Source of the DNA: Anadara kagoshimensis
Lineage: Eukaryota > Mollusca > Bivalvia > Arcoida > Arcidae
Length of the DNA stretch: 64,000 bases
Reading direction: 5' to 3'
Assembly: GCA_021292105.1 (NCBI GenBank)
Contig: CM037864.1
Span: 47,690,094-47,754,093 of the forward strand
Part shown: positions 14,112 to 54,860 of the stretch, piece by piece
Position numbering within the stretch: the stretch's first letter is position 1
Layout of the letters: the number at the start of each line of letters is the position of its first letter
Notes under the pieces: generated by a model
What the model saw: the letters and a program-made list of their open reading frames with translations, nothing else
Told to the model about the DNA's origin: nothing
The model's database searches: none
Translations under genes and position numbers: made by a program

Positions 14112-15129
14112 TTTCAGATTTTTACCACTCACTGTCAGGAAAGTTATGCACATTGCTAGACCAAAGAAACAGATACCAATTGATATGGTGGAGCATCAAT
14201 CAGTCACTCAATCGCCAATCCTGAAACTTGGAAGATGTGCATCATAAAATCACATGCGATACAATTTTAAAGAGACTGTCGGAATTTTTAGGATTTATAA
14301 TTTTTTTTATTGTTAACCCTTCAAGTAACAGGACCGGGTGGGTTTTTTTACCTTACCAAGTCGGCAGAATTTTTTTTTTTTTGGGTTGGGGGGGGGGTAA
14401 CTATTTCAAATACAAATGCCTTTGATCACATCTTCAAACATGGCCTAGATGCTGGAGCTGCTTTACACTCGAGTAGTGCCAATGTTCAGTCAGCACCACG
14501 CCCCTTCTGGTCTCCTAACTTCGCGTGAAATCTGTCCATTTTCTATGAAAATATCCAAGTGTCATTATTTTAACCTTGGATGTAAAGGCGCCAAGTGTAA
14601 TCAAATAAATAAAATACCTGAAAATATTAGATCTATCTAGTTAACTCTAAACTAAAAATGGGAATAGATCGCCATTTCTTTCCATCGTCTGCTAAATTTG
14701 GCGCGTGAACTTACGTCTTATTCTCCCAACAGTAGTTTCCTCTTTTCTCAAACGAGCACCCATATTTACAGAGGCTAAAAATATTGGCGACATAACAAAT
14801 AAAAAATAATTATACTAGTCCATGTCTAACCTAGTCTCAAAAGCAAAGCAAATACTTTGAAAACTGACAAATAAGTTGAACATTTGAACTTTCAACAGGG
14901 AAGTGAGGCCAGGTGCTCCGGAAATGTAAGCACCACCTGTATAGCTATTCGGGTGCGACTTGATTCAGTAGATCGACATGTGGCGTTGGAAAGTTTAAGA
15001 TTTAGATCCAGTGTTGGCGGGGCTCTTGTTAGAAATATTTAGCGCAACCGGTGTACGTCGATTGAGCCGAATAAAATCGGTACCGGCGAGCACAGTCATT
15101 GTTCTCTTTCATGATCCCACAAAATCGAC

Positions 15130-15690
15130 AGCCATGTATATTAATATTCTGAGTGATTAAATATTGACTGGGGAGTAAAACACCATTATTAGATCTCTTC
15201 TCCTCCGCCACGGTGATCCCAAAATCGACATCCATGTAGTATGATATAAGTGAAAAATATTGACTGGGGCGTAAAACACCGGCATTACTTATTTCCCTTG
15301 TCCTCTTTGAACAAAAATCGACAATCATGTACATATAAGTGACTAAATCTTGACTGGGGCGTAAAACACCATTGACTTGTCTAAGTGAACCAATCTTTAC
15401 CAGCATCAAATGTATCATTACTCAGTCATTGTTTTTGTCCTCCCTGGTCTAAAAATCGACAGCCATGTATGGTATAAGTGATTAAATCTTGACTGGGGCG
15501 TAAAACACCATAACTTGGATCTCTTGTCCTCCCTGGTCTCAAAATCGACAGCCATGTATGGTATAAGTGACTAAATCTTGACTGGGGCGTAAAACACCAT
15601 AACTTGGATCTCTTGTCCTCCCTGGTCTCAAAATCGACAGCCATGTATGGTATAAGTGACTAAATCTTGACTGGGGCGTAAAACACCATT
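15130..15690. repeat. 89-bp tandem satellite in A2
   Basis: Copy of the 6950-7560 array, with the same unit number and order. It is recognised by 'ttgactggggcgtaaaacac' recurring at 89-bp steps. Confidence 0.9.
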
Positions 15691-17902
15691 ACTTATCCAA
15701 ATATGTTCCATTCCTATTCATACTACAAAAATGCATCCTTGTCAAATGTGTTAAATATATCACCGTGGAATTTTACGATTTTCACAGTCATGAATAATTT
15801 TATAATATCTTTAACTTATTTGTAAAGCATTATTGTATATTTTATCTATTTACCGTTGAGAAGTTATTTATAGCACGTCATGTACATATCTTTTAACTGT
15901 TTACCGTTTTATTACATAAGTTATAGTATTTATGGTCAAATTATTATATATATTTTACTTCGTATTATCGCCCATTACGGGAAATGAATGTCCGCACCTG
16001 TCTAATGCGGATCAACGTTATTGACTCTATTGTCAAATATTCTTAATGACTCGCTTGCCCCTAGCTACCCGCTGATATTACGTATTTAATACTTATATTT
16101 GTGAAAAACATATTGTTTGAAAAATAACTATATATTGTCTAATGTCGACAACAGAAATCAGACTCGCTTGGGCTGTCCATCGAGACACATGTAAATTTGT
16201 ACATAAAGTTTAGAAACTGTATATAGAGTTACGTCTTTTATTTATATAAATTGAATATAGCAAATTATTCTGTAACCGCCTCACAACAGAAATTTAGCGG
16301 TTATAAATAGATGTAGCATGACATCTATCGATCTTTCCAACGCTAAAAACATGCAGGTGGTTTTTTTAAATAAAGTATTTATCACAATGTGTCATAGGAG
16401 TTGTTATTACAACAAATAAAATATATACACGTATATACTTTACTTTTTATTGGAAAATTCAGATCACCCACTCACATAAAATATGACTTTATAATACAGT
16501 GTATAATTATTTAACCAATCAGAAATGTAAAAAACTGCATTAACAATTTATTAATACTGTCATGTGCATTCACAAAGTATACGTAGCACATGACAAAATA
16601 ATGCATTCACAAAGTAGCACATGACAAAATAATGCATTCACAAAGTATAGCACATGCATTAACAAATACTACTACTGCTACTACTAATGCTAAAACTACG
16701 AAATTTTATTAAATGTCACACATTTAGATTACATTTTAAAATATTGAAAGTTATATACAAATAAAGCTAAATGTCCAGTCTCTTGTGCTAACTGATCAAT
16801 AAACAAAAATTAAAAAAATATTTGAAAATTGGTATACTGATAAACTTTAATTTTTAAAGTTGCCAAAAACTAAGTGCCTTGATAACAAAGTGATGATTCT
16901 GGAATGCTTCAAATGTCAGCTGGTATCAATGAATATTTACCTATACAATAAAAAAGAAGAACATTATATGTTTAACAAATTACAATAAATTAACCGTACA
17001 TCATTAAGTACATTGGGCACACCCGAGCCTTCTTAAGAGAACCACAACGATCAAACCTGTCAACCTCTACCTCTCTCTCTCTCTCTCTCTCTCTCTCTCT
17101 CCAAACGTTTAAAAAAGAAGGAATTGTGTCTTTCTGATTACATTAATATTACAGTTCATTAATTCTGTAACATTACATGTTTAATATATAAGATACAAAT
17201 CAGTTGCATGGCGGTATAAAGTATAGTCTACACACTCAAACATTCTTAACAAATATATATACTGTCATGTGCTACCTTTGAATATTTATGAAAGTAGCAT
17301 ATGACAATACTTACACAATAAAAACCAACAACTTTCAACCACGACTCTCTCTCTCTCTCTCTCTCTCTCTCTCTCTCTCGAATTTAGGACAACACAATCT
17401 CGGATCTTATTGCAATAGGCCAAGTTCATGTAATGTCATGTACATAACTGAATTAATCATCACCATACGTAATGCCTCGTTACTTACAACATAATACGTA
17501 CTTTAAGTCGTTTTACGGTCTTTCTGTAATTTCTCGATTTCATCCTTTAATTTCTGATTTTCTTTCTCAAGGCCTTCTATTTTTCTATTGGCCTACAATA
17601 AAGAAGTTATATTAAGATTACCATATTATAAAATGTCTCATTTCATTGATCAACTTGGCCACATTAGAAGCACGATGTTTGGCCAGTTGTTTGTCTATTA
17701 TATTGGTTACCAATCAAAAACAAACACACTAATCCATGTACGAATCACAATCCAGAAGCAAAGTAAAAACTTTGGAAACGACAAGTTAGGTTATATGCCA
17801 ATAGAATAAACCCAAAGTTAACAGATACTGCATGTGGGCAAATTTACGGCTACTTATAGTATAATAACCAAATATTACATGACAGTTTAAAACACTAGAA
17901 AA

Positions 17903-54300: not shown

Positions 54301-54789
54301 CATCAGGTTCAGATTGAAGAGAAGAGTAAAACAGATAAAATGAAAAAAATTGAAGAAAGTTACGAATTGATGTTTGCAAGAGAAAAAGCTTTGTTTGAAG
54401 ATAAACTATCGGTACAGCGCAGAGAGATCGAAAGAGAAAAAGAAAAGTTAGAATTTCAATTGAAACGTGATATTGCTGCAAAAGTAGAGAGTGAAGATAA
54501 GGAAAAAGAAATTAATGACATGAAAAGAGCATTAGAATTGAAAAAGAAAGATTCAATTGACAAAATTGAGTCAGATTATAAAAATGTTTGCGATGAACTA
54601 GATAAAGATAAACGTGATGTCCTAAAAGCTATAGAAAGAGATTATAAGCTTTTAATAGCTAATGTGGAACAAGAATTAGAAGAAAATAAATCATATTCTT
54701 TGAGGAAGTTAAAAGAAAATGTGGATAAAATTAAATGCAAAAGTAACGACAAAATTAAAAAGTTAAAGACAAATTACAAAAACTTGTGA
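51351..54789 (+). CDS. Type B DZIP3-like HEPN gene, copy B2
   Basis: Inferred exons are 51351-52050 (700 nt), 52411-52532 (122 nt), 53261-53365 (105 nt) and 54097-54789 (693 nt). They join in phase to 539 codons, with GT donors and AG acceptors matching B1. Exon 1 is the DZIP3-like HEPN domain with ETDFDI and the complete motif RNDLSH at about residues 114-119. Exon 2 is acidic (VESDNQSDEYEKE). Exon 3 has a tandem QAETDRQ-type heptad. Exon 4 is a 230-residue Lys/Glu-rich coiled coil. The ATG used in B1 is present at 51294 but codon 7 is TAG, so I start at the next in-frame ATG (51351). A start from an upstream exon through the acceptor near 51333 is also possible. No signal or membrane segment is seen. 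A cytosolic, self-associating HEPN ribonuclease-type protein is the inference. Any immune role is suggested only by the wider expansion of this family in molluscs. Confidence 0.78.
52920..53130 (-). mobile_element. RT-P 3' end in B2 intron 2, reverse
   Basis: 'ccgccaggaaagcgaggcca' and 'gatgatccggaagggcaag' followed by the reversed RT tail ('tttccagggcaatcctagac'). It is not at the same site as the B1 intron 2 insertions. Confidence 0.7.
53873..54020 (+). mobile_element. Decayed Penelope-type terminal segment with ribozyme remnant, in B2 intron 3
   Basis: 'aaggtatactccctcat' and 'aaatatattttggtcatttg' match the segment before the ribozyme at 35825. Only the 3' half of the hammerhead survives, 'attccgtaacggtcgtctag' near 53984-54003. 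The ctgatga box is gone and the gaa core is changed to gta, so it cannot cleave. Confidence 0.6.
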
Positions 54790-54860
54790 GTTCCAGTTTA
54801 GTTATTTTAGTCAGATATCCACTTGGAAAAAGATGACATTGTTAGAAGATGTTTAAATCT

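Follow-up and report, generated by a model that had tools for sequence, protein, structure and literature searches.

A stretch of 64,000 nucleotides from the genome of Anadara kagoshimensis (contig CM037864.1 of GCA_021292105.1, forward strand, 47,690,094-47,754,093; hereafter the window) contains two divergent pairs of genes related to the HEPN_DZIP3 family (Pfam PF18738). In each pair, a minus-strand, motif-less HEPN-like gene (type A) and a plus-strand HEPN gene of the active type (type B) point away from each other. An earlier note on this DNA had described the pairs A2-B1 and A3-B2, and both are present; what it overlooked is an extra, frameshifted A copy (A1) and the fact that the two pairs are mutual copies. 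We also read 100 kb on each side of the window and searched the whole genome for copies of A and B. The pairs are numbered 1 (A2-B1) and 2 (A3-B2) in the window, and 3 (A4-B3), 4 (A5-B4) and 5 (A6-B5) beyond it. The gene models were built from splice signals and comparison between the copies, not from transcripts. They give three exons for type A and four for type B, with like intron phases (first intron phase 1, second phase 0). The features, in window coordinates, are:

9374-9454, minus strand: A1 exon 3, short coil
10572-10681, minus strand: A1 exon 2
12608-13356, minus strand: A1 exon 1, HEPN-like, frame broken by a 2-base deletion; A1 is an extra tandem copy of A2
17503-17592, minus strand: A2 exon 3, in frame from the upstream acceptor
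18702-18810, minus strand: A2 exon 2, frame ended by a one-base deletion at the exon start
20733-21483, minus strand: A2 exon 1, HEPN-like, lost motif (RSDILKKYG)
21484-30808, no strand: spacer between the ATG codons of A2 and B1, 9.3 kb
30809-31520, plus strand: B1 exon 1, HEPN domain with RNDLAH
31812-31933, plus strand: B1 exon 2
34109-34171, plus strand: B1 exon 3
34739-35433, plus strand: B1 coil exon, interrupted by stops and by frameshifts, so that the reading ends at 346 amino acids
42608-42688, minus strand: A3 exon 3, short heptad-like tail, whose frame stays open only if the downstream one of its two acceptors is used
43817-43926, minus strand: A3 exon 2
45016-45766, minus strand: A3 exon 1, HEPN-like, lost motif
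45767-51350, no strand: spacer between the ATG codons of A3 and B2, 5.6 kb, lacking about 3.3 kb found beside B in pair 1
51351-52050, plus strand: B2 exon 1, HEPN domain with RNDLSH
52411-52532, plus strand: B2 exon 2
53261-53365, plus strand: B2 exon 3
54097-54789, plus strand: B2 exon 4, long and coiled-coil-like

With regard to family membership, B2 scored 27.4-27.6 bits against PF18738, above the cut-off of 27, and B1 24.2 bits, below it; of type B, the Pfam scans covered B1 and B2. The type A genes also stayed below the cut-off (A2 16 bits, A3 14.5-14.8 bits), matching at profile positions 38-69. The genome (1.115 Gb) holds at least 121 HEPN_DZIP3 matches, and 14 control genomes gave none. 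We aligned 68 of the 121 with A2, A3, B1, B2 and B3; these 68 are mostly the higher-scoring ones, near-copies included, so that motif-less members may be under-sampled. The motif [RK]N...H stands at the family position in 67 of the 68 domains (62 with R, 5 with K), and the sole domain without an aligned motif has a family match that stops at profile position 93. The type B genes keep R....H there, as the earlier note had stated: RNDLAH in B1 and RNDLSH in B2, both inside the PF18738 match; the alignment adds RDNLSH in B3, and by reading we found RNDLSH in B4 and B5 and RNNLAH in three distant B genes. At the same position A2 and A3 have RSDIL-KKYG in a well-matched context. That type A lacks the motif is borne out more widely: no Rx4-6H occurs in the whole 313 amino acids of A3, the first 190 of A2, exon 1 of A5 or exon 1 of A6 from codon 13. 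The loss predates the duplications of A, because the lost-motif stretch is identical in A2, A3, A5 and A6. Placing the motif from the A-B alignment alone was rejected, since pairwise scores prefer a different one, with R139 at ranks 16 and 18 of 75; the register given here is therefore that of the wider family alignment.

The likeness of A to B, which the earlier note had extended to a general pattern beyond the ETDFDI block, stood for one half of the domain only. The block TP[VI]ETDFDI is common to both types, and the N-terminal halves of A3 and B2 are homologous (z score 19.7, 0 of 2000 shuffles as good; 8.7 without the ETDFDI block), a profile comparison covering A residues 15-97. The C-terminal half of A showed no demonstrable likeness to that of B (A3/B2 z 0.4; A2/B1 z 2.0, reached by 98 of 2000 shuffles). 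It did match canonical family members of the same genome, namely L003 (z 6.7, 0 of 1000 shuffles), its identical copy L004 (6.2), L001 (5.6) and L005 (3.7), with no match to L002 (z 1.8), L006, L007 or L008. Judged at the sequence level, type A is homologous to accepted HEPN_DZIP3 members over both halves and is a member of the family that has lost its motif. These matches and the family alignment run against the alternative, named in the earlier note, that A is not HEPN. In a tree of 69 rows A joins B with support 87/86, a grouping to which attraction of long branches may contribute.

HEPN_RiboL-PSP was considered for B and not accepted (best 24 bits against a cut-off of 28.4). Pfam scans, which for this purpose covered the exons of A and B, showed no match to the MNT domain of MNT-HEPN toxin-antitoxin systems. 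No relatives were confirmed in viral contigs or in bacterial and archaeal genome contigs. A sequence search of the PDB returned two matches for B2 at E values of 0.5-0.7 and none for A3, NCBIfam and PADLOC returned nothing under E 0.1, and Rfam gave no hit at gathering scores.

The earlier note had proposed that both types end in coiled coil, which is upheld for A3-B2 and fails for A2, whose frame ends at the start of exon 2, and for B1, whose coil exon has stops. The spliced reading of A3 is 313 amino acids, of which a 63-residue tail is heptad-like, and the stop-free reading of B2 is 539 amino acids, with a coil-like exon of 230; both assignments come from a home-made heptad score of low specificity (the HEPN exon of B2, taken as a control, also reached p 0.04). 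The coil exon of B4 departs from that of B2 after residue 186. At the exon 3 acceptor of A1, A2 and A3 (9454, 17592, 42688) there are two candidates, 8 bases apart, with an A-run of four in A1 and A3 and of five in A2, A4 and A5. Exactly one of the two acceptors keeps the tail open in 5 of 5 copies read (A1-A5). Much of A intron 1 is occupied by a 52-bp tandem repeat (10761-12117 and 18886-20242, 26 copies each; 44016-44628, about 10 copies), and many of its units, judged by eye on the gene strand, resemble a splice acceptor, with a pyrimidine tract that ends in CAG. Exon 1 of A4, which lies outside the window, continues into the repeat.

Genome-wide there are six close copies of A, all on the minus strand, and five of B, all on the plus strand, and every one of them is on the same chromosome, C8. 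Five of the six A copies have a divergent close B; the exception is the tandem extra A1, which has 7.5 kb in common with the A2 region at 98.7% identity and a spacing of 8.1 kb, the likeness ending 120 bp upstream of the A1 ATG. Pair 3 lies beyond the window (A4 exon 1 at 95736-96101 and B3 at 105117, in window coordinates), and whole-genome searches placed A5-B4 and A6-B5 about 0.6 Mb further on, so the units spread over about 0.66 Mb of one chromosome. Divergent pairs of active-type and dead-type HEPN paralogues are real, the unit being found five times. The two pairs in the window are nevertheless not independent observations, because one two-gene unit was copied.

The history of this copying is a patchwork. 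Between pairs 1 and 2 the spacers align collinearly at about 96%, and the spacers and the A intron stretch are about 96-97% alike; the spacers have diverged about as much as A introns and silent sites. The 3.3 kb just upstream of B in pair 1 has a counterpart in pair 3 and is missing at B2. Intron 1 of B1 and B2 is 78.6% alike, and intron 3 is 63.5% alike, where five shuffles of the latter gave 46-49%. An early reading, in which older B genes had each received a separate copy of A and the spacer, was softened after the third pair was found. Patchy conversion explains the gradient of divergence equally well, because intron 1 of B2 and B3 is 96.4% alike despite a synonymous divergence (dS) of 0.19 in exon 1. 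In B3, codons 80-120, including the motif RDNLSH (105357-105476 in window coordinates, outside the window), are 70-75% like B1/B2 at the DNA level and the other 20-codon blocks 82-100%, which suggests a block that may have been swapped or is fast-changing. Duplication of the unit with patchy gene conversion fits this patchwork, and for the anatomy and common descent of the pairs we have high confidence.

The window also has several repeats. A 61-bp tandem repeat lies in the A-B spacer of pair 1 (22556-22991, about seven copies) and of pair 2 (46985-47116, two copies). A dispersed element of about 200 bp, perhaps a small transposon, occurs in both orientations at 23278-23470, 27335-27529, 41216-41424, 47411-47609, 55775-55982 and 62756-62953, and by eye a truncated copy directly adjoins B2 on its 5' side, near 51290. 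A repeat with a period of 145 bp at 2113-2790 recurs once in the left flank read and many times in the right one. The open frames at 29607-29891, 40674-41222 and 60315-60611 resemble, by eye, fragments of reverse transcriptases; Pfam gave no credible match for the one at 40674-41219.

One explanation of the pairing makes A a dedicated partner for B, with which it would form a heterodimer in which the dead subunit acts as brake or sensor. The earlier note had put forward such a partnership, with assembly through the coiled coils of both proteins and A as regulator or sensor. In its favor, every close A except the tandem A1 has a divergent B, an order rarely seen among other neighbors in the family: those 3-50 kb apart were 21 times on the same strand, 2 times convergent and never divergent (0 of 23), and up to 100 kb the counts were 33, 2 and 1 (1 of 36), all taken from the 121 family-model matches, in which A and B are absent. 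On the other hand, all pairs have a single origin, the A tail is short and unlike the B coil, and the distances are large. Gene pairs with a bidirectional promoter typically have their divergent starts within about 1 kb of each other. The ATG gaps of the five pairs (9.3, 5.6, 9.0, 19.9 and about 7.5 kb) speak against a simple shared promoter, although they run from ATG to ATG, and transcription starts and 5' noncoding exons may differ. B also occurs in the absence of A at three loci, as set out below. On balance a dedicated partnership is doubtful.

The state of the copies bears on this explanation and on a second one, that A is a decaying, functionless paralogue carried beside B by duplication of the unit, its divergent order being a historical accident. 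Pair 2 is open on both sides (313 and 539 amino acids), and so is pair 4 (A5 with 312 amino acids when the upstream acceptor is used, B4 with 494). In pair 1 both genes are broken, and likewise in pair 3, where exon 1 of A4 is open for 127 amino acids until cut short at the start of the intron repeat and the B3 coil exon carries a 2-base frameshift. In pair 5, A6 stops after 21 amino acids and B5 after 226, near the end of exon 1 (the other exons of this pair were not read). In all 5 pairs A and B thus share one state, open or broken, as expected of partners; with two of the five A genes and two of the five B genes open, chance would give such agreement 1 time in 10, and concordant decay may mirror the age of the unit, so that we regard it as a hint rather than evidence. 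Exon 1 of B1 and B2 is open in both despite about 71 differing sites, where random changes would be stop-free in about 2%. The ratio of nonsynonymous to synonymous divergence (dN/dS) for A exon 1 is 0.62 for A2-A3, 0.68 for A2-A5 and 0.48 for A3-A5 (95% range 0.24-1.13, with 3.6% of bootstraps at or above 1); for B it is 0.69 for B2-B4, 0.77 for B1-B2 and 0.35 for B2 against its relative at 43.30 Mb, at a dS near 1. A is weakly constrained at best, and recent B copies likewise.

Several of these facts weigh against a retained function of A. In the assembly, four of the six A copies (A1, A2, A4, A6) are broken, though some of the breaks could stem from misassembly at short base runs. All three A comparisons have a 95% bootstrap range of dN/dS that takes in 1, which means weak selection, and the open reading of A3 depends on one acceptor of two. 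Moreover, three relatives of B (51-56%) at 43.30-43.59 Mb of C8 retain RNNLAH, and no close A lies near them. Decay would agree with the broken copies, the dN/dS ranges and the B genes that stand without A, and with the spacers having diverged like A introns and silent sites. It is less easily reconciled with exon 1 being open in A2, A3 and A5, with an exon 2 almost invariant across the five copies read, with the identical dead-motif stretch in four copies, or with the A3-A5 ratio. We consider decay quite possible, at somewhat below an even chance. We lean, without strong confidence, towards the joint reading that anatomy and history are as described and that A is a dead HEPN still making protein from at least one copy.

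How such a protein might act can be seen from known systems. The HEPN RNases Csm6/Csx1, RNase L and Ire1 act as homodimers, and the composite active site of HEPN enzymes needs motif residues from both protomers. B has the motif that serves in composite sites of this kind; it differs from these enzymes in that no CARF, ankyrin or kinase match was found in exon 1 of A or B. We know of no account of how animal HEPN_DZIP3 RNases are restrained. The inactive HEPN proteins of Caenorhabditis probably belong to other HEPN families. Among the closest known systems is the DZIP3/hRUL138-like family (PF18738) itself, which B1-B3 resemble in a domain with R....H and which is expanded in A. kagoshimensis; A differs in having neither the N nor the H of the motif. 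The available parts of the literature describe an expansion of DZIP3-type HEPN genes in Pinctada fucata and list oyster and Nematostella in a table (PMC9646362, PMC3710099), HEPN fusions to NACHT in cnidarians, and a proposed role of the pearl oyster family in degrading viral or transposon RNA (the last two cited jointly to PMC9646362, PMC8260672 and PMC3710099). In P. fucata, Rx4-6H is kept in 194 of 202 and absent in 8, and the accessible part of that report describes no paired unit of dead and live genes (PMC9646362). Inactive HEPN proteins are also expanded in Caenorhabditis and have been proposed as RNA receptors; they are like A in having lost the motif within an expanded animal HEPN set and unlike it in that the part of the source at hand describes no linked active partner (PMC3710099). 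In the partly available texts that our literature search returned, we recognised no account of a linked live/dead HEPN pair.

The Caenorhabditis precedent suggests a third explanation, that A alone is a non-catalytic RNA receptor or scaffold unrelated to B. The proposal of such receptors (PMC3710099, seen in part), the retained domain and the A gene's own short coil-like tail are consistent with it, but it leaves unexplained why close A copies occur only in the B-bearing cluster, and we hold it to be a minority possibility.

Returning to the divergent two-gene unit, duplicated repeatedly on one chromosome with patchy conversion and much decay, B is most likely a metal-independent HEPN endoribonuclease. 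Its coil would organise it into a working dimer or higher assembly, and this role would fit the RNA defence proposed for the expanded family. A would be a pseudo-enzyme, and if it acts at all, its action is likeliest non-catalytic. It may bind RNA, or it may join B through the HEPN face and spoil the composite active site, thereby restraining or tuning B; a mixed A-B dimer would have half a site, because A supplies neither N nor H. A functional relation between A and B seems rather unlikely to us, as does a separate non-catalytic role for A; if neither holds, A is on its way to being lost. The most specific form, in which A is a dead HEPN subunit kept to restrain the linked active RNase and in which loss of one partner goes with loss of the other, is improbable.

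If that form were true, it would represent an animal effector/inhibitor pair made from two copies of one immune-type domain and amplified head-to-head. A3-B2 and A5-B4 are the two pairs open enough for testing. Several animal lineages have expanded sets of HEPN_DZIP3 genes, for which cleavage of foreign RNA has been proposed, and a linked motif-less paralogue would be a candidate for their brake.

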